Shown: positions 195-58,688, counted from the first letter of the stretch. The stretch is 64,000 nt of DNA from Thermogemmata fonticola (GCF_013694095.1 NZ_JACEFB010000007.1:124001-188000); one strand, 5' to 3'. Numbers and translations: made by a program. Notes: generated by a model not told the origin, from the letters alone.

Positions 195-1250
195 ATGTCC
201 AGTCACCCTTGGATCCTCGGCGTCGTTGTTGTCGTAGGGACGATGCCATTTAGGACCTTAGGTCAGGCAGAACAGTCGCTCGACTTCAAGAAGGATGTGC
301 TGCCCCGCCTCCGCTCCTCCTTTTTCCCGGAGGATATACCCGCCATTTCGATCAAATGTCGCATGACGGTGGAGCCTAGAGATGATACACCCTCAGAGAC
401 GCGCGAGGCGGTTTATCGCTTTTCACCCCGAGGCGGTTTAGTCACGCATTTACGTTGGGATAAGCCTTACATCGATGGTTACAATCCCTGGTATGCTTTT
501 CGCATCGAACGTCCGGCTGAAGAAAAAGACTGGAAATTGGTATCCCTGTGGATGGCGGGAGACCCAGGATACGAAGAATATGTCGATAGTATTAAGTTGC
601 AAGTGAAAGAGAGGGCGCGGATTCCACCGGTGGGTATCAAGGGTGTGAGTTTAGTGGAATTAGCTACGTTTCGGTCATTTCGGCTCACGGAATGCAAACG
701 GGTTAACAGAGCAGGGCGAGAGTATATCCAGGTTAGCTTTGAGATTCAACCGAGTCGGGAGGAAGCTGAGCGGTATCCCGTCGCTGCCTGGGAGGGATTG
801 GAGTTTTTACGTCATGCTACGATTATTATCGATCCGCAAATGTGGATCACGGTTGAGCGTGTGACGCAACACTTGGGTAATATCAGAGGAGATTCAAAGG
901 TTTACATTAAAAATAATATAGAATATAGATTTAATTCTAAGGATCAATTGATAGGTTATAATATTCATGCAGAAATAACAGAAGTATCGCAAAAGCGCCG
1001 CGATGTGATTCCACGGACACCGACATCCGTAACACGGATCGAGACGATAGTTGAGACGCCGGAGGATATACCGGATCGGGAGTTTATGTTGACGGCGTTT
1101 GGGTTGCCGGAGCCGAAGGGGGTGAAGGTGCCGGGTCCCTGGATTCCGCCGTACGTTTGGTTGATCGTGGCCGGAGTGGTATTAGCCGTGGTAGCTGACA
1201 TTTTTCGTCGATTGGCTCGTCAGCGGGGTGGGTCTCAGGAAGCAACGTGA
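195..1250 (+). CDS. Secreted, C-terminally anchored protein of unknown function
   Basis: I do not recognise a named family. From ATG 195 the protein is about 351 residues, begins with a hydrophobic signal-peptide-like stretch ending near LGQA, and closes with one membrane helix (PPYVWLIVAGVVLAVVADIF) followed by a basic tail, so the body should lie outside the cytoplasmic membrane. The body is rich in beta-strand-like segments and resembles planctomycete secreted proteins of the LolA/DUF1571 kind only loosely. Start choice: GGGAG at 183-187 sits 7 bases before ATG 195 and the signal peptide then starts at once; GTG 144 and ATG 165 are in frame but lack such a site. The stretch 880-970 is unusually AT-rich for the gene. 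A DUF1559 gene follows 30 bases downstream, so the two may be co-transcribed. Confidence 0.7.
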   Translation: MSSHPWILGVVVVVGTMPFRTLGQAEQSLDFKKDVLPRLRSSFFPEDIPAISIKCRMTVEPRDDTPSETREAVYRFSPRGGLVTHLRWDKPYIDGYNPWYAFRIERPAEEKDWKLVSLWMAGDPGYEEYVDSIKLQVKERARIPPVGIKGVSLVELATFRSFRLTECKRVNRAGREYIQVSFEIQPSREEAERYPVAAWEGLEFLRHATIIIDPQMWITVERVTQHLGNIRGDSKVYIKNNIEYRFNSKDQLIGYNIHAEITEVSQKRRDVIPRTPTSVTRIETIVETPEDIPDREFMLTAFGLPEPKGVKVPGPWIPPYVWLIVAGVVLAVVADIFRRLARQRGGSQEAT

Positions 1251-1280
1251 TTATGTCAAGATCTGCGGGGAGGGATGGCC

Positions 1281-2183
1281 ATGACTCGTCCTCGGTGGGG
1301 GTTTAGTCTTATCGAAGTGGTGGTGGTCATCGCTATCGTCGCGCTTCTGGCAGGTCTGCTGTTGTCGGCAGTGCAGCAGGTTCGGGGTGCAGCGGCCCGG
1401 ATGCAATGTCAGAATCATCTGCGGCAACTGGCTTTGGGTTGTCACCATTATGCCGCGGCAAAGGGTCAGTTGCCGCCGGGGGTGGTGATTGGCAACGGAA
1501 AGCCGGAGCAAGTGCCGATGTTTTGTTCGACCTGGCTAGTACACATTCTGCCGTATATAGAACAGTCGGCGGTGTGGGAACAGGTCCAGGCGGCTTATCG
1601 GGCCGATCCGAGTCCCTTCGGTTCGGCGCATCAGGCGGTGGCTCAGGTGGTGATTCCTGTGTATGGATGTCCATCAGATAGTCGGGTGTCAAGTCCACAG
1701 GTGATTCCGGACAGTCATTTGGTGAAGTCGCTGAGTAGTTATTTAGGGGTGATGGGGGACAATTATGCCAGTGGAGATGGAGTGCTTTATACCGATTCTC
1801 AGGTCAAGATGGTGGATATCCGGGATGGGACGAGTCAGACGTTGCTGATAGGGGAACGGCCACCGGCGGCGAATCTGACGTTTGGTCGGTGGTATAACGG
1901 TCGAGGTCAGGCGTTTACCGGTTCGTTGGATGCGATTTTGGGGGTACGGGAGATCAATTTGCGACCGCAGGGGATTCCGGATTGTCCGCGGGTGGTGTAT
2001 CGGTTTGAGCCTGGGGATTTTTGGGATAATTGTGATGTGTTTCATTTTTGGAGTCCGCATAGTGGTGGGGCGAATTTTGCGTGGGCGGATGGTTCGGTGC
2101 GGTGGATTCCATATTCGGCGGCTCGATGGATGCCGGCTTTGGCTTCGCGTGCCGGAGGAGAGGTGGTGGAACTGCCAGAGTGA
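1281..2183 (+). CDS. DUF1559 domain protein with type IV pilin-like N-terminus
   Basis: This belongs to the large planctomycete DUF1559 family. The N-terminus carries a prepilin-type methylation motif (G-FSLIEV) followed by a hydrophobic helix, VVVIAIVALLAGLLLSAVQQ, and a conserved MQCQNHLRQLALGCHHY segment. The C-terminus has the family hallmark H-x9-DG (HSGGANFAWADG). Family members are thought to be exported pseudopilin-like surface proteins with a beta-rich globular domain; their role is not known. Start: GGGGAGGG at 1267-1274 abuts ATG 1275, which leaves ATG 1281 at proper spacing, so I prefer 1281; ATG 1275 would add two residues (Met-Ala). Length of about 300 residues is normal for the family. 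Confidence 0.9.
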   Translation: MTRPRWGFSLIEVVVVIAIVALLAGLLLSAVQQVRGAAARMQCQNHLRQLALGCHHYAAAKGQLPPGVVIGNGKPEQVPMFCSTWLVHILPYIEQSAVWEQVQAAYRADPSPFGSAHQAVAQVVIPVYGCPSDSRVSSPQVIPDSHLVKSLSSYLGVMGDNYASGDGVLYTDSQVKMVDIRDGTSQTLLIGERPPAANLTFGRWYNGRGQAFTGSLDAILGVREINLRPQGIPDCPRVVYRFEPGDFWDNCDVFHFWSPHSGGANFAWADGSVRWIPYSAARWMPALASRAGGEVVELPE

Positions 2184-2355
2184 AGAGGGGTTGTTGTGTC
2201 CGTTCGAGGTTTGTGAATAAGTGTGACATATGTTTGTTTGATCAGTCAGGATCATGGAGCCGAGGGTGGGGGGAGTTGGGCTGGGGATAGAAAGGGAAGA
2301 CGATTCCCTGCGGTTTGAGATCGTCGGGGGTGTGAGGTCGTCGGGAGTTGGGGAT

Positions 2356-3627
2356 TCAGCGGGGCCAGTGGAATTGAGGATGTTGTTGGCGCCACCGTGT
2401 GAGGCGTTCGGCCTGGGGTCCGCTGGAACAGGCGGCGGTGAGGGTCTGTCCGATGAAGTGGACTGCTTCGACGAGGCGTTCATCGGATTCGGCACAACTG
2501 AGGCGGAGAAATCCGAGTCCGGAAGGGCCAAAGCATTCGCCCCCTAAGCAAGCGACCCCTCGACGTTCGTCGGCAGCTTCCAGCAAGAACATGGCTAGGC
2601 CGTGGGAGGTCAGACCGAAGCGTTGACACCAGAGGCGCAAATCGGGGAAGACGTAGAAGGTGCCGGCGGGGCGGCGGACGCGGACACCTTCCAGGCGGCT
2701 CAGTTCGGTGACGAGCAGGTTGACTTTGGCGCGGAATTGGTTCATTTGTTCATTCCGAGTGGGTTCGTCCAGTTCCAGGGCGGCCTGGGCGGCCTTCTGG
2801 ACGAAGGGGGGCACACAGGAAAGGGACGTGTTCAGAAGTTTGCCGAAGACCTGGATGACCGGTGGGGGAGCGACGGCGAAGCCGCAGCGCCAGCCGCTCA
2901 TGCTGTAGCTCTTGGAGAAGGTGTAGGCGGCGACGGTGCGTTCCCGCAATTCCGGCAGGCTCAGGGGGGTGTGGTGTTTCCCCTCCCAGACCATGTGGCA
3001 GTAGGGTTCGTCCGAGAAGAGGAGGACGGGGGTGCCGCGGAGGAGGTCGGCGAAGGCGCGGAGGTCATCGAGGAGCAGGATGCTGCCGGTGGGGTTGTGG
3101 GGGGAGTTGAGGAAAACGGCTTTGGGGCGGCTGTGCTGGCGGAGGAAGCGGGCGAGGTCGTCGGGGTCGGGGCGGAAGTGACGCTCCGGCCGCAGGGGGG
3201 CAAGGACAGGGATAGCCCCGCGGCGGAGGATGTTGGGGAGGTAGGTCGGGAAGGCGGGTTCAAAGACCAGGACGGCGTCGCCGGGTTCGAGGAAGGCTTC
3301 GCAGAAGAAAGTTTGGAAGATTTTGGCCCCGGCGCCGACGGCGATGTGGTCAGCGGTCAGGTCGAGGGCGAATTCGCGGTTGAGGGTCTGGGCGATGGCG
3401 GCGCGGAATTCAGGCAGTCCGAGGGAGGGGGCGTAGCGGGTGTGACCGGCGTCGAGGGCAGCGTGGGCAGCAGCCAGGGCATGCGGCGGGGTGGGGAAAG
3501 GACTGTCGCCGATCTGGAGTTCGATGACCTCCTTGCCAGCGGCGCGGAGGCGGCGGGCCACGGCCAGCACGTCGAAGGCGGTTTCGCTGGTCAAACCAGC
3601 GGCGAAGGCGGAAAAGGCCCAATTCAT
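2356..3627 (-). CDS. Class I/II pyridoxal-phosphate aminotransferase
   Basis: A fold-type I PLP enzyme of about 423 residues, related to aspartate aminotransferases of subgroup I-gamma/beta. Visible motifs in order: the substrate-side segment IELQIGDSPFPTPP, a cofactor-binding AGAKIFQTF, NSPHNPTGS (the Asn that contacts the PLP oxygen), SDEPYCHMVW (the Asp that pairs with the pyridine nitrogen), the Schiff-base lysine in TFSKSYSMSGWRCGF, and the C-terminal arginine in FLRLSCAES that binds the substrate carboxylate. All catalytic positions are present, so it should be active; the amino donor cannot be told from sequence. Start at 3627 gives MNWAFSAFAAG; the reading frame stays open upstream to 3654 without a better site. 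It stands alone, convergent with the preceding DUF1559 gene. Confidence 0.88.
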   Translation of the reverse strand: MNWAFSAFAAGLTSETAFDVLAVARRLRAAGKEVIELQIGDSPFPTPPHALAAAHAALDAGHTRYAPSLGLPEFRAAIAQTLNREFALDLTADHIAVGAGAKIFQTFFCEAFLEPGDAVLVFEPAFPTYLPNILRRGAIPVLAPLRPERHFRPDPDDLARFLRQHSRPKAVFLNSPHNPTGSILLLDDLRAFADLLRGTPVLLFSDEPYCHMVWEGKHHTPLSLPELRERTVAAYTFSKSYSMSGWRCGFAVAPPPVIQVFGKLLNTSLSCVPPFVQKAAQAALELDEPTRNEQMNQFRAKVNLLVTELSRLEGVRVRRPAGTFYVFPDLRLWCQRFGLTSHGLAMFLLEAADERRGVACLGGECFGPSGLGFLRLSCAESDERLVEAVHFIGQTLTAACSSGPQAERLTRWRQQHPQFHWPR

Positions 3628-3753
3628 GGAATGATCTCCGTCGGGCGGGGTCAATAGGACCGCGGAAGCGTGGGGCGCTCGTCGGAGCGGTTGCTTCCGG
3701 CGGAACGGCGGCTTTCCCCGTGGTCTCGTCCTTTACTTCAGCGCGTTTGTCCT

Positions 3754-4503
3754 TTACTGCTGCAAGTTGATGGCCCGTGCCAGGGGTTGAAGCACCTGGG
3801 GCAGCACCGCCCCCTGCATTAGCTCTTCGAGGATGCGCCGCTGATTATGGTAGGAATCGATGAAGTTGGCGAAGGGCTGCTTATTCCAGAGCTGCCGCAC
3901 GGTCAGGTAGAGGGAGATCGGGGCGTCCGGCGAAGCCTGGCCGTTGCGGAGGTGGTAGGCATTGGTGCGGGTTTCGATGTGCAAGCGGGCCTGCAACTGG
4001 AAGGTGTCGTCGAGGGCCAATTGCAGGATCGGCTGGTAATGCAGGACGGAGGCGCCCGGCATCTGGCTGAGGGCTTCCAAAGGGGTGCCGCTGGCGATGG
4101 CTTCCAGGACCAGTTGATCGTGGTTCCCCTGGTAGATCAGGTCGAAGTGGTACATGACATCCAGGGATTCGGTTTGCAGGCCGCTGAGATCGAGGTGGAA
4201 CGGGGCCAGTTCCAGGATGCGGGTGATGTGTTCATCGGCGGCTTCGAGCGAGGGGGGATTGACGAAGCCACAGCAGAGGCGGCGGCGGTCCAGGGACACC
4301 CAGCGGTAGCTGCCGCTTTCCCGCTCTTCTTGGAGGAAGTAGTCCTCCTCGGCGCGCTTCTCGAATTCAGTCATGCTCGGCTGAACCTTTTGGATCGCCT
4401 CGAAGAAGTGCAGGACCGTTTCGCGGCCAGTCGGCATGTCCAGCTTGGAGTGCAGATACAGGGTGACCCCGCATTCATCGCACAAGGAAGCGTAGGGGTT
4501 CAT
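3754..4503 (-). CDS. Conserved protein of unknown function with N-terminal CxxC
   Basis: A predicted soluble protein of about 249 residues that I cannot place in a family. It has a Cys pair CDEC at residues 8-11 and a CC pair near residue 78, which could form a metal or redox site but are not followed by a recognisable zinc-ribbon spacing. No signal peptide or membrane helix is visible. The start at 4503 is set by GGAGG about 7 bases upstream; the open frame reaches 4527 without a better signal. It lies between an aminotransferase and otsA, all on the minus strand but with gaps of 126 and 379 bases, so operon membership is doubtful. Codon use and lack of frame breaks support a real gene. Confidence 0.65.
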   Translation of the reverse strand: MNPYASLCDECGVTLYLHSKLDMPTGRETVLHFFEAIQKVQPSMTEFEKRAEEDYFLQEERESGSYRWVSLDRRRLCCGFVNPPSLEAADEHITRILELAPFHLDLSGLQTESLDVMYHFDLIYQGNHDQLVLEAIASGTPLEALSQMPGASVLHYQPILQLALDDTFQLQARLHIETRTNAYHLRNGQASPDAPISLYLTVRQLWNKQPFANFIDSYHNQRRILEELMQGAVLPQVLQPLARAINLQQ

Positions 4504-4882
4504 GAGAAGGCCTCCGCGATGGTGCACCGTGGCAGAAGAAAACCTCCCGGAGGAGGACCGCCCGCGTTCGCCGTTACAGGACAGGAAGAACCGCGGTTGT
4601 CGCCGGCGGAGGAGAGGAGCCGGGATGCTAAACCTCTCCTCCCGCGCGGCCAGTATCCAGCCGAAGCGCCCGCAGGTGTGGTGTTGTTATTGTTCGTTCC
4701 GAGGTGTCAACTAGCAAGGTTGGCAGAGAGCGTGGCAGGGGGGCAGTGCTGGGGCGAACGGCAAATGCCGCCGCTCCGGGACCGGGCACCAGCGGCCTCT
4801 GGAGAGTGGGGAGCCGCCAGCGGTGAACCAGAGCAGGGAGGGGGAAATCGGCGGGAAGTAGGAGGTTGGGGGGCCGGAGCTG
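4504..4882. other. Gene-free interval between otsA and the CxxC protein
   Basis: About 380 bases hold no convincing gene. The short frames here have no ribosome binding site and no protein-like composition. I see no clear hairpin with a T-run. Confidence 0.5.
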
Positions 4883-6451
4883 TCACAGCCGTGCCAGTGG
4901 GGTGAGGGTTTCGCCGGGGCGGGGCGGAGTCGGGGCGGCGGCGGATGAAACGGGGTCGGCGGCTTCGGCAACGGGCAGCGGCTCCGGAGCCATTTTCCCC
5001 AAGGCGCTGAGCAACTGGCCGGCCCAGCGATAGATGTTGTGTTCCAGAACCTGGGTCCGCAGGCGGCGCATCCGACGCTCTTGCTCTTCGACCGGCATGG
5101 TCAGGGCTTGGTACAAGCCTTGGGCCAACTCTTCCACGTCGAAGGGGTTGACCAGGACGGCGTCGGTCAGTTCGCGGGCCGCTCCGGTGAAGCGCGACAG
5201 GACCAGCACGCCGCGCTCATCCTCGCGGGTGGCGACGAATTCCTTGGCCACCAGGTTCATGCCGTCGTGCAGGGAGCTGACCACGCAACCGGCGGCCATG
5301 CGGTAGAGCAGGGTGATCTCCTCCGGTCCGAGATGCTCCTGGAGCAGAACCACCGGCTGCCAAGAGGGGGTGCCGTGTTCCCAATTGATCCGGTCGGCCA
5401 GTTCCTGGACTTCCTCGGTCAGGTCGCGGTAGGCCGGTAGATGGGTGCGGCTCGGCGCTCCGACCTGGAGGAAGTGGAAGGTGCCCCGGAGCTGGGGATG
5501 CTTGCCCAAGAGGCGATCCAGGGCGAGCAAGCGTTCGGGGATGCCCTTGGTGTAATCGAGGCGGTCCACGCCGACGAGCAGGGGGCGCTGGCCGAGGCGG
5601 AACTTTTTGCGCAGCCGGGCGGCCCGGCTTTCCCACGTGCTGCCAAGATAGCGGCGGGGCAAATCGGTATCGACACTGATGGGGAAGGGGCGCACCTGGG
5701 TTTCGTGCCCGCCGCGGGTGATCGAGAACGTCTCCCGGTTCCAGCGGCACTCCAGGGTGCGATCGACGCATTCGAGGAAGTTGTTGCAGTCATGCTGGGT
5801 GTGGAAGCCGAGCAGGTCGTTGCCGAGCAGGCCGTCCAGAATCTCCCGCGCCCAAGGGCAGACCAGGAACTTGTCCACGTTCGGCCAGGGGATGTGCCAG
5901 AAGTGGGCGATGGCCAGATCAGGCCGGGCTTCCTTGAGCAGGCGGGGCAGCAGGGCAAAGTGATAATCCTGGACGAAGATCAGGGCTGGGCCGTCCTGCG
6001 CTTCCTCCAGAACGGCCGCAGCGAATAGCTCGTTGACCTGGCGGTAGGTCTGCCAATGCTGAGGGTCGAAAAGGGGGCGGCAGAAGACTTCATGGCACAG
6101 CGGCCAGAGGCAGCTATTGGCGAAGCCGTAGTAGTAGCCTTCCTCCTGTTCCCGGCTCAGCCAGACGCGGCGGAGGGTGTAGCGGGGATCATCGGGGGGC
6201 ACGCCGACGCGGCCCGCCTCGTCACACACTTCCCGATCAGCTTCGCCGGAACCGTGCGCCACCCAGACCCCGCCGCAGGCTTGCATCACGGGGTCCAGCG
6301 CCGTCGTCAAACCGCCGGCCGGGCGAATCCAATCGATCTCCCCTTCCCGGTAGCGGTGAATATACGGCTCGCGGTTCGCCACGATGATCAAGCGGGCGCC
6401 GCCCAAACGGGTCCGCGCCACTTCCAGCAGACGGTGCTTATCCCAAGCCAT
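4883..6451 (-). CDS. otsA: Trehalose-6-phosphate synthase (GT20)
   Basis: Transfers glucose from a nucleotide-sugar (usually UDP-glucose) to glucose-6-phosphate, the first step of trehalose synthesis in the cytoplasm. The 522-residue protein matches the GT-B fold enzyme from end to end: N-terminal LIIVANREPY and PAGGLTTALDP, the FVQDYHFALLP and HIPWPN segments, then the nucleotide-sugar half with VGVDRLDYTKGIPERL, LHDGMNLVAKEF and RFTGAARELTDAVLVNPFD. The last 45 residues are a Pro/Ala-rich tail not needed for catalysis. The start MAWDKHRLL has GGAGG in the upstream bases. No trehalose-phosphatase (otsB) gene or domain lies beside it, so the second step must be encoded elsewhere. Trehalose or its glucosyl relatives would serve as compatible solutes. 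Confidence 0.93.
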   Translation of the reverse strand: MAWDKHRLLEVARTRLGGARLIIVANREPYIHRYREGEIDWIRPAGGLTTALDPVMQACGGVWVAHGSGEADREVCDEAGRVGVPPDDPRYTLRRVWLSREQEEGYYYGFANSCLWPLCHEVFCRPLFDPQHWQTYRQVNELFAAAVLEEAQDGPALIFVQDYHFALLPRLLKEARPDLAIAHFWHIPWPNVDKFLVCPWAREILDGLLGNDLLGFHTQHDCNNFLECVDRTLECRWNRETFSITRGGHETQVRPFPISVDTDLPRRYLGSTWESRAARLRKKFRLGQRPLLVGVDRLDYTKGIPERLLALDRLLGKHPQLRGTFHFLQVGAPSRTHLPAYRDLTEEVQELADRINWEHGTPSWQPVVLLQEHLGPEEITLLYRMAAGCVVSSLHDGMNLVAKEFVATREDERGVLVLSRFTGAARELTDAVLVNPFDVEELAQGLYQALTMPVEEQERRMRRLRTQVLEHNIYRWAGQLLSALGKMAPEPLPVAEAADPVSSAAAPTPPRPGETLTPLARL

Positions 6452-6829
6452 CGATGTCCTCCTCGGAAGGTCTCCGATTCCAGATGTTGCTCAAGCTCCG
6501 ACTGCGCGGAGAGCGGTACGACCCAACGACGCAAAGCACACAGTCATCCGTGACTCAGCAAACACGGTGCCGCGGATCATCCCCACTGCCTGGCTGAACT
6601 TGATCCCCAAGAGCGGCGGAACCTCCCACTCGGCTGGCCCAGCGTTTGCAGAATCCCCTCCGGATCTGCGGCATAAAATGCCATACCGCAACGGCTTGAA
6701 CCGCGCGTGCGGACGGCGGGCGGCGGAAACCCTCCGGCTGCACCAAACCTGCGGCGAATTGTGCAAATACGACCGCCCAGACATCAGCCGCTTAGGATTG
6801 GTTTCGCGGGGTTACGCTGCCCCGTCCGA

Positions 6830-6865
6830 TGTTCAGAAACTGGCCGAGATTTGTTCAGAAATTGG
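6830..6865. repeat. Direct repeat pair with 22-bp period (TGTTCAGAAAYTGG)
   Basis: TGTTCAGAAACTGG at 6830-6843 recurs as TGTTCAGAAATTGG at 6852-6865, 13 of 14 bases identical, start to start 22 bp. This equals about two turns of B-DNA, so a dimeric regulator could bind both on one face of the helix. It lies roughly 260 bases before the histidine-kinase start. Confidence 0.55.
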
Positions 6866-6921: not shown

Positions 6922-7128
6922 CTTCTCCGACGTGCCGGGGCAGACTTCGCTGAGTCTCAAGGGGCCTGGCTGGCTCCCAGGAAGCGCCCCAGGGAGTGCT
7001 AAGGTTCCTCGGAGCTGTGAGGCGGCAGGGGAAGCGGGCAAGATAGCATGGAAGGATTGCCATGGGGAAGAGGTCGTGTCATGGTGAGAATAGGGGAAGT
7101 CCGAGAGGCGGGAGCAGGAGGAGCGGGG

Positions 7129-8760
7129 ATGCGGACGTACATGATGGCCCAGTTGACCGCTCCGGTGGCGGGTTTGAGCGTACTGCTATTGGGTTTGGCG
7201 GTGGTGGCAGCGTGGTACGTGCAGGACATGCAAGCGCGGGCGTCCGGCCCGATTGCCAGCAGCGTGGCCAGCGTCACGGCGGCGCAGGAGTTTGAAATCG
7301 TCATCCGGGAAGTGACGGACATTCTCTACCGGGCGATCATTCACTTGCAGGATCGGGAGCTGGAAGAGCGTCTGCCGTGGCTGCGCCGCCGGGCGGATGA
7401 GGCCCTGGCCCATGCCGAGGAGGCGGCCCGCACGGACACGGAGCAGCAGCTCATCGTCCGGGTCCGGGAAGGGTACCAGCATTTCTTCGCGGAGTACGAC
7501 CGCATCCGGGCGCATCCGCCTCCCCAAGGGCGCTATCCGGAGATCAGCCGCCTGCTCGATACGGTGCTGAGCGAGGAGATTCTCAAGCCGATCCATGAGT
7601 ATCTGCGGCATAACGAAGCGATGCTCAAGCAGGCGAGCGCGACCAATGAGCATTTGGCGCAGCGGCTGAGCATCGGGCTATTGGTGGTGGGCCTGTTCGG
7701 TTCGATCGGCGGGCTGTTGGGAGGCTGGGTGATCGCGGGGGGCGTCCGCCGCGCTCTTTTGGAAAATGAGATGCAGTGGCTGCTGACGGTAGAGCGGCTC
7801 GACGAGGTGCTCCAACAGTCGGGCCAGGCGGTGGAAGGGCCGGTGGAAGGGGGTGATCCGCTGGCGCGTTTCCAGGCTTCGCTGGCGGCGGTGTTGCAGC
7901 GCTTGCAGCAGACCCAGCGGGATGCCCTGCGCGCGGAGCAACTGGCCTGGATGGGCCGGATGGCCGCCAGCATCGCCCACGAAATCCGCAATCCGCTCAT
8001 GGCGATCAAGCTGCTGATTCAGACCGCGGGGGAACGGCCCGGCGGACCGCACCTGCGCCCGCGCGACTTCCAGGTGCTGGAAGAAGAGATCGCCCGGTTG
8101 GAACAGATCGTGGCCGGCTTTCTGGACTTCGCCCGCCCGCCGCGCCCGCATCCCCAAGCGGTGGATGTCGTCGCGGCTACTGCCGCCGCCCTAGAGAACA
8201 TTCGCCCCAAGGCCGAGAGCCAAAATGTCGCCCTCCGCCTCGATGGCGGCGAACTTCCCCTTGTGGTGCAAGTGGACCCGAACCAGCTGCGCCAGGTCCT
8301 CTTGAACCTGCTGTTCAACGCCTTGGAAGCCCAGCCGGACGGCGGGGAAATCGAAGTCAGCGTCCGCCTGGATCGCCTCACGCCGGCTCAGCCCCATTGG
8401 CTGCTCAGCGTCGCGGACCGTGGGCCAGGGTTGCCGGAGGTGGGAGAGCGCATCTTCGAGCCGTTCGTCAGCACCAAGGAATCCGGCTTGGGTTTAGGGC
8501 TGTCGATTTGCCGGCGGATTGCCGAGATGCACGGGGGAACGCTGACGGCGGAGAATCGGCCTGGCGGCGGAGCGGTGTTCACCCTGCGCTTGCCGTGCCA
8601 GCCGCCCTTGGCCCCGCCGAACGGGACGAGGGAAGGAACGGGAGAAGCCGACCGCCTGGAAGCCGCCCCGACTCCCCGCGCTCCGGTCCCGGCGCCGGCC
8701 CTGCCCCGCCCGCGCCCGGATCGGCAGCCCCCCACTCGGCCCATCGCCGAGCAAACCTAG
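7129..8760 (+). CDS. Membrane sensor histidine kinase (NtrB/AtoS type)
   Basis: A two-component sensor of about 543 residues. The N-terminal membrane helix (LTAPVAGLSVLLLGLAVVAAWYV) and a second one near residues 190-212 (IGLLVVGLFGSIGGLLGGWVIAG) bracket an extracytoplasmic helical sensor domain. Then come a short linker, a HisKA domain with the phospho-accepting His284 in SIAHEIRNPL, and a HATPase domain with N box NLLFNALEA, G1 DRGPGLPE, F box IFEPFVSTK and G2 GLGLGL. The C-terminal 55 residues are a disordered Pro-rich tail. ATG 7129 has GGAGGAG 5 bases upstream; ATG 7081 is an alternative. The NtrC-type regulator starts 42 bases downstream and is its probable partner. The signal is unknown. 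Confidence 0.88.
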   Translation: MRTYMMAQLTAPVAGLSVLLLGLAVVAAWYVQDMQARASGPIASSVASVTAAQEFEIVIREVTDILYRAIIHLQDRELEERLPWLRRRADEALAHAEEAARTDTEQQLIVRVREGYQHFFAEYDRIRAHPPPQGRYPEISRLLDTVLSEEILKPIHEYLRHNEAMLKQASATNEHLAQRLSIGLLVVGLFGSIGGLLGGWVIAGGVRRALLENEMQWLLTVERLDEVLQQSGQAVEGPVEGGDPLARFQASLAAVLQRLQQTQRDALRAEQLAWMGRMAASIAHEIRNPLMAIKLLIQTAGERPGGPHLRPRDFQVLEEEIARLEQIVAGFLDFARPPRPHPQAVDVVAATAAALENIRPKAESQNVALRLDGGELPLVVQVDPNQLRQVLLNLLFNALEAQPDGGEIEVSVRLDRLTPAQPHWLLSVADRGPGLPEVGERIFEPFVSTKESGLGLGLSICRRIAEMHGGTLTAENRPGGGAVFTLRLPCQPPLAPPNGTREGTGEADRLEAAPTPRAPVPAPALPRPRPDRQPPTRPIAEQT

Positions 8761-51938: not shown

Positions 51939-52592
51939 GGTTCCCTCTCCCGAGCCTCTAGCCATGAGTCGCTTGTCCTACTCGGTTCAGGCAGCAAGAC
52001 CAATCAGGCCGCGAGACCAAATCAGGCGGGACACTCAGGTCCGATCCATTTCCAGACCAAACAGACCTCCGAACCGCAATGTCGTGACCCAGCGGCGGAT
52101 CAGGGTTATTCCTGGATCGTTCCTGGCCTGGCCATCTCGGTTTGCTCCCTTGCGCCCCGGCCTCCTCGCCTAGCTCCCGTTGGAGACGTCTTCCTTCCTA
52201 TCAGTCCTCATTGTACCGCCTGCGGTTTCTTTGGGCCGTCCGTCCAAGCCGCTTCCCCCGTGCGGTTCCTTCCCGTCCCCCTGCTCAGTCTCAGTATGGA
52301 TCTGCTCCCGATCGGAGTGGGAGGTGTCCGGCGGCGAGTGGGTCATCCGATGGGGGAACCGGCTGGGCGGAGCCAGGGCCTTCCTTCCAGGCCGTGAGTC
52401 CGGCAGGTCCTTCACCCCCTCAGGAGCAACGGCAGCAGAAAATGGGAGATTATGTCCCTCTCTTGCACGATAAGAGGGTAAAATGGTACAAGCCGTCAGG
52501 GATTCCGGTCGGTGGTGGGCCGAGCGGAACTGTGACTATCGAAGAGCTACGAGAGATTTCGCTTCAGGGTGAAATGTCACGGGACGGGAACC
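51939..52592. other. Gene-free interval upstream of hicB
   Basis: About 650 bases. Frames such as 51855-52397 plus lack a binding site and read like random GC-rich sequence. A 6-bp hairpin CCCTCT/AGAGGG with a 12-base loop lies at about 52456-52479. No repeats or RNA gene were recognised. Confidence 0.45.
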
Positions 52593-53144
52593 ATGATCCT
52601 TTGGGAGCCGCCAGAAAGCCATCCGCTGCGCCGCCTCTTTTCGGGACTGACTGAACACGCTTTTTTCGCGCATCTGGGTGTGGCGGATCCGCGCCTGACC
52701 GATTATCTGTCCTTGCTGTTGGCCCGGTTCATTCACTTTGACACCATTTACCGCCTGCGCAGTGCGGCGGGCCGGCCCCTGACCGAGCTGGTGGATATGG
52801 TCCTGGAAGCGGAGCAGCTCCCCGCTGGAGGGCGCACCCAGCGCGAATACTACCGTCACATCGGCGATTTCGCCCTCTTCTGGACCGGCGTCTATCCCGA
52901 AGCGTTGGATCAGCATCGCCGCCAGGCCGTCAAGGATGCCCTGGTCAGCTACACCTATCAGGGCAAGCGCAGCTACCTCATCACCAGCCGGCTGGAAGAG
53001 GCGGAACATCACGACGAACAAGCCGGGCTATTCCGCCGTCTGAGCGAGCAATTCGAGCTGTGCGCTCTTGGCCTGCGCAAAGTGCGGGAGGAATGGGAGG
53101 AACTCCGCCGCCAGACCCCGCCCGGTCCGCCCATCATCTGCTGA
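52593..53144 (+). CDS. Conserved soluble protein of unknown function
   Basis: A 183-residue helical protein, MILWEPPESHPLRRLFSGLTEHAFFAHLGV, with no signal peptide or membrane helix. The middle has FIHFDTIYRLRSAAGRPLTELVDMVLEAEQL, the end HHDEQAGLFRRLSEQFELCALGLRKVREEW, probably a helical bundle. The family is not recognised. GTG 52569 is in frame, but MILWE (ATG 52593) is preferred for its start of conserved-looking sequence; the ribosome binding site is weak (GGGA). It is convergent with the beta-propeller gene that follows. Confidence 0.65.
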   Translation: MILWEPPESHPLRRLFSGLTEHAFFAHLGVADPRLTDYLSLLLARFIHFDTIYRLRSAAGRPLTELVDMVLEAEQLPAGGRTQREYYRHIGDFALFWTGVYPEALDQHRRQAVKDALVSYTYQGKRSYLITSRLEEAEHHDEQAGLFRRLSEQFELCALGLRKVREEWEELRRQTPPGPPIIC

Positions 53145-54377: not shown

Positions 54378-54674
54378 TCCCGCTCCTCCTCAGGTTGTCT
54401 GGAGCGTCCGTATTCTTCCGTCATGGTCATTGTCGCGGCTGGGCGGCCGCTGGCTACGCCGGTGCGTTTGGAGAATCCCGCCGTCCGCTTCTCCCGCCGC
54501 TGGTCCTTTCGCTGCTACCTTCCGCGGCCGCTTTCGCCGCCGTGGCGCGGAGGGCACAATGCATGATACGCTTGCATGAGGCCTACTATGCAGCATAATA
54601 ACTTTCCTGACTAGATGTTGTGGAAGAGTTTTCACACTGGCGTCTTTTGGGGGTTGGATAGGATTTCTCCGTCG
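54378..54674. other. Divergent promoter region before the GTPase pair
   Basis: About 300 bases between divergent genes. The right half becomes AT-rich around 54585-54615 (AGCATAATAACTTT), where a -10-like element is likely. I cannot assign a precise promoter. Confidence 0.4.
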
Positions 54675-56765
54675 ATGTTCCGTCACAAGGGTCTCGAAGA
54701 GGTTTTGCAGGAGTGGCAGAAGCTGCGCCAGGCGCCAGTCCTGGGGCGCACGGCACCGCCTCCACCGGTGGTGAGGACGCTAGAGCAAGCTCTGGACGCT
54801 CTGGGTCAACGGCAGCGTGTGCAGGAGGTGGATGCCCAGGCGGAACTGTGCCGCCAGCGTCTGGAGATGGCCGCCACGCCCATCCTCGGCGTGCTGGGGG
54901 AACTCAACGCGGGCAAGTCGAGCGTGGTGGCGCGCTTTCTCAGTCCGGCGGGACGCTGCCGTCTGCCCCGCGGCTTGGAGGAGGCCTTCGGCACGCATCG
55001 CTTTGTGTACTGGTTCCCCCGCGCTTGGCAGCAGGACGAGCAGCGCTACCAAGCCCTCCTGCGCTGGCTGGCCCAAGCCCACGGCCACGCCCCTGAACCG
55101 CTCCACGAGAAGCCGGAGATTGCTTTCCAGCAGTACCGTAGCGGACGGGAAAACCCTGCGCTCATCCCCGTCCCCCTCGTCGCTTACGACGAGCAGCTCC
55201 AGCACTTCGCCCTGCTCGATTGCCCCGATGTGCAGACCGAGGACCATCCCCCCGCTTCCCCCGCGGCGCTCCTTGGCTCATCCTCGCCCCCGCCCAACCG
55301 CCGCCTAGAGTTTGTCACCCAGGCCGCCCGCCTCTGCTCCGCCTTCCTCCTGGTCTGGGAACGCAGTCAGGTCCGCGACCGGCTCGTCGGAGAGTTCCTC
55401 CACCGCCTCCGCCAAGTCATGGCTCAAGTCCCCATCTTTCTTCTCATTAACAAAGTCCGTCCCAAACCGGATGCCTTATCCGCAATTCTTCAAGATGAGG
55501 ATATCCAAAGAATCCGTGAAAAATACCATATCCAGGACATCTACGTTGCTATGGACTTTGATATTCCCAATTGGGAGCGATACACACCGGCTTCCTTGCA
55601 GAAGGACAAAGCCTCTTTGCCGAATGACGAGGCGGGAAAGTCCCCGGTGTTCTTCCGCCTCGATGCCAACACCGCCGCTGATCCTCACGCCGCACCGGCC
55701 ACGGTGGGATTGGCAGCTCTCTTCCAGCAGCTTCCGCCGGCCGAGTTGCAAAAAGCAGCGATTGACTCGGCAGTGACAGAACTCCGCCAGCAGATCGCCG
55801 CCCTTCTGGACAGCCTCGACACCTGGCGGCAGAAGTGCGAAAAGACCACCCGCTCCGCCTGGCAGGGCCTGCTGCAATTCTGCCTGGAGTTGTTCCAGGA
55901 TCAACGCGGCGAACCCATCCAAATCTACAATCTTGCCTTCCAGGAAAAGCTCAACAAAGTCATCATGGAACAGGCCCCCTGGTATGTTAAGATGGCGAAT
56001 TGGTTCCATGACAGAATCCATAGCGGTGTGGAATTGGTCCGCAAGATGATACCGTTATCAGGATTAAGACACCAGGCGGAGCAATGGCGGAGCCACTTGC
56101 AGCATTGGGCGGGGGGATTTGTGGATGCCGCGGAGTTGGCCCAGCGCAGTCTCCAGCAGCGGTGGGTGCCTGCGGATTGGCCGATGGAGCGATTGGAGTA
56201 TCTCTGGAAGGAGGTGCTGGAGCAGTTGAGGCGCTTCGAGCATCAGGTCAGCGAGGCGGATTTGCGGCCGATGGCGGAGGATTTCTGGCGGCATGCCCCG
56301 GCAGGGGTAGGCTGGCGCAGCGCGCTGTCGATTCTGGGAAGCATGGCAGCGGTGGCGGGCTTGGCCACGGCGGCGATTGACGGCGGAGCGACACTCATGG
56401 CCGGCTATTCCTTCTCCGCGGCGGTGGCTTCGGCCATTCCAGGCCTGGGCGCCCTGACGGTCGGGGCTATCGGGACTGGAACCGCCTTGGCCGTCTGCTA
56501 CGCCGGACTGATCCAGCATAACTCGCTTCCCTATCTGTCGGCATTTTTCACCTTGGCCTGTGACGCCTTCGGACTGCCGCACCGCCTCGATGACCAGCCG
56601 CTGACCGTGACCTTTGGGCGAGGCGAGCAGCGGCGACCATTCACACTGCCGCAAGTCGCAGTGCCCTCCTTGCGGGTGTGCCACCCCTTGCCGAACATCG
56701 GGCTGTGGCACTGGACAGGTCCGGGCCGCCAGGCCTGGGAAAACGCCCGCCGCTCTCTCCCGTGA
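54675..56765 (+). CDS. Dynamin-like large GTPase candidate A
   Basis: About 696 residues from ATG 54675; ATG 54615 is in frame but gives an unlikely leader, and neither start has a strong binding site. The G domain shows a G1 loop GELNAGKS (75-82) with Lys81. G3 is altered: LLDCPDV has Asp182 but no DxxG glycine. The G4 position reads INKVR (Asn259-Lys260) without the usual Asp. A long helical middle follows, and a Gly/Ala-rich hydrophobic hairpin near residues 550-620 (ILGSMAAVAGLATAAID to ALTVGAIGTGTALAVCYAGLI) suits membrane insertion, as in bacterial dynamin-like proteins. It is followed after 33 bases by a second GTPase-like gene and probably works with it in membrane remodelling or repair. 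Confidence 0.7.
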   Translation: MFRHKGLEEVLQEWQKLRQAPVLGRTAPPPPVVRTLEQALDALGQRQRVQEVDAQAELCRQRLEMAATPILGVLGELNAGKSSVVARFLSPAGRCRLPRGLEEAFGTHRFVYWFPRAWQQDEQRYQALLRWLAQAHGHAPEPLHEKPEIAFQQYRSGRENPALIPVPLVAYDEQLQHFALLDCPDVQTEDHPPASPAALLGSSSPPPNRRLEFVTQAARLCSAFLLVWERSQVRDRLVGEFLHRLRQVMAQVPIFLLINKVRPKPDALSAILQDEDIQRIREKYHIQDIYVAMDFDIPNWERYTPASLQKDKASLPNDEAGKSPVFFRLDANTAADPHAAPATVGLAALFQQLPPAELQKAAIDSAVTELRQQIAALLDSLDTWRQKCEKTTRSAWQGLLQFCLELFQDQRGEPIQIYNLAFQEKLNKVIMEQAPWYVKMANWFHDRIHSGVELVRKMIPLSGLRHQAEQWRSHLQHWAGGFVDAAELAQRSLQQRWVPADWPMERLEYLWKEVLEQLRRFEHQVSEADLRPMAEDFWRHAPAGVGWRSALSILGSMAAVAGLATAAIDGGATLMAGYSFSAAVASAIPGLGALTVGAIGTGTALAVCYAGLIQHNSLPYLSAFFTLACDAFGLPHRLDDQPLTVTFGRGEQRRPFTLPQVAVPSLRVCHPLPNIGLWHWTGPGRQAWENARRSLP

Positions 56766-56798
56766 TCCCTCGTTGGCTTTTGGGGAAAGGAATCGGTT

Positions 56799-58688
56799 AT
56801 GTCTGCTCCTCCTGCGCGCTCCCCCTCCTCTGCTGCGCTCGCCCAACTCCGGCAGTGGTGCGAGCAGGTGCTGGCCGCGGTGCACCAGGTCTTTGGGGAC
56901 CATCCGCCGGCGCCGGCCATTCGGCAGCTCTGCCGCCAGGTACTGGAGGAGGCGCAATTGCTGCTAGCGCGGACCGCGACCGTGGCAGTGTCCGTGGTGC
57001 TTTTGGGGCGCACGGCGTCCGGCAAAGGGTGGCTGGCGCGCTGCTTCCTGCGCGATCCCGCTTTGCGCTCGGCCATTCCCAGCGGCCAGAACTCCGCGGA
57101 TCGCTCGGCCCATCTGCTCTGGATCGGCCCCCAGCCGCCGCCGCAACGGGAAGAAGGGGAGCAGTATCTCCCCGCCTCTGCCGAGCAGATGCTCGATTTG
57201 GGCGTGCCGTACTGCCTGGGCGATGCCCCTGGCTTTTCTACCTATGGGGAAGCCGCGGAGCGTCTCCACCGCCGGGCCTTGGCCTCCGCCGCCCTGAAAA
57301 TCCTCGTGTTGCCTCAGGAATCCCTCCGCGACGCCGGTGTGGTGCAACTCCTCCGCCAGCTTCCGGCTGCCCGCGTCCTCCCCGCCATCCGCTTCCGCAA
57401 TCAGCCGGGACAGACCCAGCCCCGCGAACAAACCTACCAGGATGTTCTCCATCACTACCAGCTTTGGCAGCAGGCTGCCCCCGCCACCCGTCTCCTCTCA
57501 CCCCTCTGGATTCCCGATGCGGATTGCTATGCCCCTCATGATCCTAATCAAGCGATCACTTACACACAGAAATTATTGCAGGATACATTGACGCCTCTTT
57601 TAGCGGATTCCCAGCAGCGTCAGCAGGCGCTGGAGGCGGAAATCCACGCCCGGCACGAGCAACTCCGCCGCAGCGTTGAACAACATCTGGAGGAGTTCCG
57701 CCAGCGCCTTCAGCCGATCCTGGCCAAGATCGACGACACCCTCTACAGCCTCCCGCCGCAATTGACCCGCCAGATGTTCGGTGAGGATGTCCCCCTGGCC
57801 GCCCTGGTGCGCGTCCGCCTCCGCGCCCATATCTTCCACTATACACCGCCTTGGTGTTTCCCCTATCGTTCCATCTTAGGACTTCTTATATTGACATCCA
57901 ATGCTTGGGATCGCCTGATTTTTACATTGACAGGCAGTATTCCATCACTAGTCGCCGTGGTGTGGCAATCTTGGAAGAATGTGCGCACGATGGGGAAGGC
58001 TATGGCCCGGCAGCGGCTGCCCTTGGCGGCGTATCTCCAGCAGCAGGCCCGCGAAGCCTTGGCCGTGCCGCTCCAGCGCTTGCGGCAGACCCTGGCCGCC
58101 TGGCGCGACGAGGAAGTCCGACCGGAACAGGATTCCTACCAAGAAGTTAAGGTCCGTATCGCCGGGCTAGACGAGTTCCAAAACCGCTGCCGCTCTCTCC
58201 TGGAGCAGACGTTAGCCGAGCACACCGCCCGCCGCCGCTCCCCCTGGCTCTTCGCCCTCTTCGCTACCCTCGCCTTTCTCTTTTTCTTCTCTGGACCTGT
58301 TGTGGTCATCTATCGGCAATACATTGAAACTCTATGGCAAGTCTTTCGCGGAGAACCCGTATCATGGAGTGATTTCCCTCGTCCCGATTTTTCCATGATA
58401 TTCACCAGCTTCATTCTCAGTGTGATTCCCGTGGCCTTGATTGCCATGATCGCCCTGACGGGGTTCACGCGCCGCCGCCTCGTGGAGCACTTGGCAAGCT
58501 CCTTCCGTCAAAAGATCGACGCTGTGACGAAACAGTGGCAGCAGCAGGCGATGCTGCGCCTGGAATTGCACGATCCCCAGTGGGAAGCGGTGCAGCGGCT
58601 GCTTCATCTGGACGGGGTGGCCGCTGAGCGTAAACCGCCGGAATCCGCGTCCTCCGCCGCCGCCAAGCCTCCCCCGTCTGAAAGCTAA
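56799..58688 (+). CDS. Dynamin-like GTPase candidate B, partner of A
   Basis: A 629-residue protein. Its P-loop is GRTASGKG (70-77): Lys76 is present but the next residue is Gly instead of Ser/Thr, so magnesium binding may be weakened. The G3 motif is DAPGF with Asp142, close to the classic DxPG. A G4 motif cannot be named; IRFRNQPGQ is the nearest. A helical region (about 270-330) follows, then hydrophobic segments near SILGLLILTSNAW, SPWLFALFATLAFLFFFSG and SMIFTSFILSVIPVALIAMI that point to two to four membrane helices, and a Pro/Ser-rich tail. The first gene ends 33 bases upstream. Several short AT-rich patches interrupt its GC-rich coding sequence. Confidence 0.7.
   Translation: MSAPPARSPSSAALAQLRQWCEQVLAAVHQVFGDHPPAPAIRQLCRQVLEEAQLLLARTATVAVSVVLLGRTASGKGWLARCFLRDPALRSAIPSGQNSADRSAHLLWIGPQPPPQREEGEQYLPASAEQMLDLGVPYCLGDAPGFSTYGEAAERLHRRALASAALKILVLPQESLRDAGVVQLLRQLPAARVLPAIRFRNQPGQTQPREQTYQDVLHHYQLWQQAAPATRLLSPLWIPDADCYAPHDPNQAITYTQKLLQDTLTPLLADSQQRQQALEAEIHARHEQLRRSVEQHLEEFRQRLQPILAKIDDTLYSLPPQLTRQMFGEDVPLAALVRVRLRAHIFHYTPPWCFPYRSILGLLILTSNAWDRLIFTLTGSIPSLVAVVWQSWKNVRTMGKAMARQRLPLAAYLQQQAREALAVPLQRLRQTLAAWRDEEVRPEQDSYQEVKVRIAGLDEFQNRCRSLLEQTLAEHTARRRSPWLFALFATLAFLFFFSGPVVVIYRQYIETLWQVFRGEPVSWSDFPRPDFSMIFTSFILSVIPVALIAMIALTGFTRRRLVEHLASSFRQKIDAVTKQWQQQAMLRLELHDPQWEAVQRLLHLDGVAAERKPPESASSAAAKPPPSES

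Follow-up and report, generated by a model that had tools for sequence, protein, structure and literature searches.

Do two neighbouring genes encode complementary halves of a single nucleotide-binding site? This question is raised by a locus in the window, a stretch of 64,000 nucleotides from Thermogemmata fonticola (GCF_013694095.1, NZ_JACEFB010000007.1:124001-188000), in which two genes, referred to here as A and B, encode dynamin-like proteins with non-canonical GTPase motifs (Table 1). The original prediction described A as having a normal P-loop and a damaged G3 and G4, described B as lacking the P-loop Ser/Thr and retaining a DxPG-type G3, and proposed that each protein may need the other to complete a functional site. 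The motifs, the common strand and the 33-base distance were all recovered in the ORFs that we identified.

Table 1. Features of the A-B locus and of related loci (window positions unless a locus is named)
Feature	Position	Strand	Remarks
Gene A, dynamin-like protein	54675..56765	+	696 aa; ORF, fold match, homologues
A G1/P-loop GELNAGKSS, residues 95-103	54897..54923	+	G95, N98 and Lys invariant; Ser/Thr in 51/51 rows
A G2-like GTHRFV (Thr127)	54990..55007	+	Thr127 invariant, 51 rows
A G3 variant LDCPD, Asp for Gly	55215..55229	+	C-P-D in 51/51 rows; leading Asp in 50/51
A G4-like NKVR, without Asp	55449..55460	+	Asp position holds R, P or another residue, in no row Asp
A hydrophobic hairpin, putative membrane tip, residues 570-620	56322..56474	+	Hydropathy; low pLDDT
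Spacer, A stop to B start, 33 bases	56766..56798	+	A and B on one strand
Gene B, dynamin-like protein	56799..58688	+	629 aa; ORF, fold match, homologues
B G1 variant GRTASGKG, Gly for Ser/Thr	57006..57029	+	Gly only in this genome and G001
B G3 DAPGF	57222..57236	+	DxPG in 45/48 rows; gone in L010, L014, L016
B FPYR...AWDR signature, helical body	57858..57914	+	FPYR conservation in B alignment
B paired hydrophobic helices (residues 486-504, 533-551), putative transmembrane	58254..58451	+	Hydropathy 2.34 and 2.51
~190 aa protein near the pair	52569..53144	+
~190 aa protein, L009	13838..14386	-
~190 aa protein, L024	1029..1622	-
L100 pair genes	3054..5051 and 1120..3054	-	DCPD and NKVA in one, DTPD in the other

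Motifs and membrane segments of A and B

An in-frame ATG at 54615 would extend A upstream to 716 aa (54615-56765). The ATG at 54675 agrees better with the homologues, and residue numbers of A are counted from 54615. The alignment of A comprises 51 rows, in which the L057 gene, being split in two frames, enters once per half. The residues that are invariant in all rows are the P-loop Gly, Asn and Lys, Thr127, Cys203-Pro204-Asp205 and Cys241. Because these G-domain residues are invariant across the alignment, the features described are not attributable to chance. Thr127 is presumably the switch I threonine, as assigned from its position. In the G4-like motif, the Asn is retained and the Asp is missing from every aligned row. 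Given this non-canonical G3 and G4, GTP hydrolysis by A could fail. Two of the residues invariant in all A proteins are cysteines, Cys203 in DCPD (55221-55223) and Cys241 in LCSA (55335-55337), which may have a function in redox chemistry or with a metal.

The P-loop of B ends in GKS/T in most homologues, with Ser/Thr in 43 of the 48 aligned rows, and the B protein of the window combines GKG at G1 with DAPG at G3. FPYR is invariant in all aligned B proteins, even those devoid of nucleotide motifs (30 B homologues were gathered).

Membrane segments had been predicted in both proteins, and hydropathy analysis places hydrophobic, putatively membrane-inserted segments close to the C-terminal third of each, at residues 570-588 and 602-620 of A in addition to the two in B. 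The hairpin of A is 77% identical between the two members of the genus (this genome and G001), and the AlphaFold2 model of B contains helices at 481-516 and 531-556 that span both of its hydrophobic segments.

Family assignment and predicted fold

When A and B were searched singly against Pfam, NCBIfam and the PDB, nothing exceeded the cut-off, and no curated family covers either protein. We used alignments of homologues (34 for A and 30 for B) for profiles and models. MMR_HSR1 was matched weakly by 16 of the 34 A members (best E 0.022) and by 22 of the 30 B members (best E 1.3e-6), for which GBP and Dynamin_N were lower-ranking matches. The Pfam Dynamin_N cut-off was not reached by A, for which weak matches were obtained in three of the 34 members (best E 0.039). 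Judged against the sequence hallmarks of dynamins, A has the P-loop GxxxxGK[S/T] and lacks both DxxG and [NT]KxD.

The AlphaFold2 models built from these alignments (mean pLDDT 80 for A and 85 for B) both have yeast Fzo1 and mitofusin 1 as their best matches, with Fzo1 9kfe in the case of A (VIA Z 21.0, rmsd 4.9, 319 aligned, model 10-716) and 9kfd_A in the case of B (VIA Z 19.1, rmsd 4.6, 308 aligned, model 4-612). The Campylobacter jejuni DLP pair was listed by Foldseek for both models, IniA and SynDLP appear in the match lists of both, and BDLP, OPA1 and dynamin are also among the matches. A dynamin-type predicted fold, namely a G domain and a helical bundle to which a C-terminal helix returns, was found in A, and a dynamin-type predicted fold was likewise found in B; the G domains of the two proteins are paralogous, hhalign aligning them at E 7e-11. 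By predicted fold, both A and B are dynamin-like, in agreement with the original prediction, and no profile pointed to a non-GTPase family for either protein.

Matches of B to RasGAP, ZorA and apolipoprotein lie in long helices and were taken as coiled-coil noise. A role as a defence system was also considered and rejected: the matches to LeoA, ZorA and HerA are weak, and the steady presence of the genes across many Pirellulaceae genera is unlike that of a defence island gene.

Co-inheritance of A and B

Of 59 relatives, three have A; these three are also the ones that have B, and the genes are adjacent in each. A scan of a genome collection with the A profile yielded 50 loci, nearly all of which are planctomycete and most of which belong to Pirellulaceae, and the order A then B was found in all 38 adjacent pairs that were read. 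Of 199 Pirellulaceae genomes (the family of G325, assigned to Pirellulaceae via its named members), 91 carry A, 92 carry B and 90 carry both. Thus, 90 of the 93 genomes with either gene hold both, adjacent in 69 and apart in 21. Where the two genes are apart, they may be separated by 87 kb (G530), by 5.4 Mb on the same contig (G539), or lie on different contigs (G325). The exceptions are G645 with A only (85% complete), G632 with B only (86% complete) and G533, whose weak B match (E 8.7e-6) was treated as chance. The presence of the pair tracks phylogeny, being found in 17 of 68 genera, and the Fisher value for co-occurrence (2e-53) is overstated because genomes that share phylogeny are not independent events.

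The existence of orphan A genes was rejected: 10 of the 12 genomes without B beside the A locus have B elsewhere, and the two misses are MAGs (this count leaves out L014, L016 and L057, in which B already adjoins A). A and B look like an obligate pair, and since relatives keep both genes, the original prediction was not refuted on this point. Because both genes are kept even where they are unlinked, we argue for an obligate partnership, and their retention after separation is strong evidence for functional coupling.

The pair also occurs at 5956-10159 of L057, from a gammaproteobacterial bin (Candidatus Contendobacter MAG), where B looks intact and A is broken into two reading frames (5956-6840; 6959-8329); horizontal transfer, binning error and sequencing error are candidate causes. 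At L014 and G476 C2:10327-21011, two A-B copies with identical scores lie approximately 6.86 kb apart, which may represent either a true tandem duplication or an assembly artefact.

Neighbouring genes

A conserved wider neighbourhood was rejected, as A and B are the sole constant genes. In 20 Pirellulaceae loci, a gene of the MotA/TolQ/ExbB type (Pfam E about 1e-27) directly follows B (L025, L027, L028, L033, L040, L041, L043, L044, L047 and L055, among others), and it overlaps the preceding gene by 1 or 4 bases in half of them, which suggests a coupled A-B-ExbB operon in those Pirellulaceae. This gene was not found after B in the genus of the window. A conserved protein of approximately 190 aa, for which there is no Pfam match, is encoded in the vicinity of A and B in both Gemmataceae and Stieleria-type loci (Table 1).

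History of the nucleotide-binding motifs

All 51 A rows, including those accompanied by an intact B, carry DxPD and lack the G4 Asp. B is intact in 43 of its 48 rows. The G1 sequence GKG of B is found in this genome (G000) and in G001, and in three further loci, L010 (G048), L014 and L016, B has lost both G1 and G3 with A unchanged. As read from the alignments, the G3 and G4 oddities of A are family-wide and ancient, and the Ser/Thr-to-Gly change of B is confined to this genus. Since B lost both motifs in three sister genomes in which A did not change, B is not lending A a G3, and the proposal of complementary damage to one shared site did not hold.

The five genomes with a degenerate B are monophyletic, with a support of 100 in the A tree and 95 in the B tree made without the G domain. 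On these trees, which are unrooted and contain long branches that leave the inner order of the degenerate clade unsure, the transition from intact to degenerate B is a single change. At approximately 40% identity between the G domains of A, the G domains of B are 41% identical among genomes with an intact B versus 19% within the degenerate clade, where the identity of the A G domains is 41%. To judge from the sequences, B lost its nucleotide site in one event, after which the erosion continued, and A kept its own.

A second dynamin pair in the same genome

On the minus strand of contig C15 of this genome (C15:66500-73500, locus L100), two further genes for dynamin-like GTPases overlap each other, and this pair provides a yardstick for DxPD. 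The second gene of this pair has a complete P-loop and NKWD, exceeds the Pfam Dynamin_N cut-off and was matched in 50 of the 59 relatives, as compared with three of the 59 for the window pair. All 25 loci of this gene, including this genome's own copy, carry GGTGVGKS, DTPD and NKWD. DxPD is therefore, in the families aligned here, a G3 variant that recurs and that can coexist with a motif set complete in all other respects. Because this second Gemmatales dynamin family combines it with NKWD and a perfect G1, the DxPD of A need not be damage and is better read as a variant.

Proposed mechanism and alternative explanations

The pair resembles a machine with one engine more than it does a single site broken into two halves. 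The explanation towards which we lean is that the two proteins are subunits of a bacterial dynamin that is heteromeric and of the fusion type (mitofusin/BDLP-like); in this lineage, the conserved nucleotide binder would be A, and B would be a pseudo-GTPase that serves as the membrane-anchored partner. In such a complex, the two putative C-terminal transmembrane helices of B would provide the anchor and the hydrophobic hairpin of A would insert into the membrane; the G domains of A and B would dimerise head to head, and closure of the hinge would pull or bend the membrane. In most Pirellulaceae, both subunits would be able to bind nucleotide, judging by their motifs. In the present lineage, A would be the sole full nucleotide binder, with DxPD and the absent G4 Asp constituting a fixed variant site, and the G domain of B may act as a docking or activating surface.

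An alternative explanation, which we regard as unlikely, is that no active GTPase exists in this lineage, A being a nucleotide-locked or non-hydrolysing scaffold and the pair a static membrane tether. Such a tether would fit the absence of the canonical G3 Gly and G4 Asp from all A proteins, together with the loss of the P-loop Ser/Thr from B in this genome. However, the P-loop Lys and Ser/Thr, Thr127 and Asn279 of A are strictly kept, its G domain is the best-conserved large region between divergent genomes, and DxPD occurs elsewhere with otherwise perfect GTPase motifs.

It is less likely still that B is simply decaying in this lineage and that A is turning into a self-sufficient homo-oligomer, as might be supposed from the fast divergence of the B G domain in the clade and the disappearance of its nucleotide motifs from three genomes. 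Against such a decay, B is kept beside A in all five genomes of the degenerate clade, with FPYR and both hydrophobic helices. Moreover, the G domain of B is 62% identical in amino acid sequence between the two genus members despite many silent changes (51% of third positions are changed), and thus appears to remain constrained within this genus.

The least probable of these explanations, and a very improbable one, is that A and B each supply half of a nucleotide site that is joined at a shared G interface (the P-loop from A and the G3 from B), for while the motif pattern of this genome, the obligate-looking pairing and the heterotypic G-dimers proposed for C. jejuni DLP1/2 would all suit it, it is contradicted by the A motifs that are identical where B is intact, by the three loci in which B lacks both motifs beside an unchanged A, and by the recurrence of DxPD in a dynamin family with a complete G1 and NKWD.

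The heteromeric fusion-type reading can be extended to a more ambitious proposal, which we consider quite doubtful as a whole: that the pair is a one-engine dynamin that arose naturally, a mitofusin-like machine of two obligate subunits in which evolution switched off one G domain and kept it as a regulator, which FtsZ-less planctomycetes use for membrane tethering or scission, and which, in the many Pirellulaceae where it would share one operon with a MotA/TolQ/ExbB proton-channel protein, could be coupled by that protein to the proton motive force.

Comparison with known systems

Why fusion dynamins so often come in pairs is an open question (PMC6162298), and the budding mechanism of FtsZ-less planctomycetes is unknown (PMC4164004). 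The family described here forms a natural series, which runs from pairs with two motif-bearing G domains to pairs in which one of the two has been erased although the protein itself is retained, so that comparing its homologues could separate a role in catalysis from a role in docking. Cultured Pirellulaceae possess the pair in both adjacent and unlinked forms. Among the papers searched, we found no account of planctomycete dynamin pairs or of pseudo-GTPase bacterial dynamins, which is weak evidence of absence.

Most bacterial DLPs are encoded in pairs within operons, and heterotypic complexes of them are either known or assumed (PMC6104087). The DLP1/DLP2 pair of C. jejuni (Cj0411/Cj0412; PDB 5OWV, 5OXF) is also an adjacent pair of dynamin-like genes, and its chains were matched by both models (E 1e-4 to 2e-4 for one model and 2e-5 to 1e-4 for the other). 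In that system, mutation of either P-loop abolishes hydrolysis (PMC6104087). In contrast, the P-loop of B is degenerate or absent in one clade, and A carries DxPD without the G4 Asp; because both P-loops are needed in C. jejuni, a one-engine pair would work differently. Fzo1/mitofusin 1 (PDB 9kfe, 9kfd, 5yew), the top structural match of both proteins, shares with them the G domain and the helical bundle including the C-terminal helix, but A and B are bacterial, are two different subunits, show approximately 10-12% identity to it and, in the case of A, have a variant G3 and G4. Mycobacterial IniA (PDB 6j72), which is in the match lists of both models, and LeoA, whose profile matches one B homologue (E 3e-5), are likewise bacterial dynamin-like proteins; they differ from the window proteins in hosts and motifs, and the window proteins show no family-level sequence match to them. 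The L100 pair similarly consists of two overlapping GTPase genes with DCPD and DTPD, and belongs to a different family from the window pair. Paired bacterial dynamins are known; what is new is a family of planctomycetes in which one subunit has DxPD as a fixed feature and the other lost its site in one clade.
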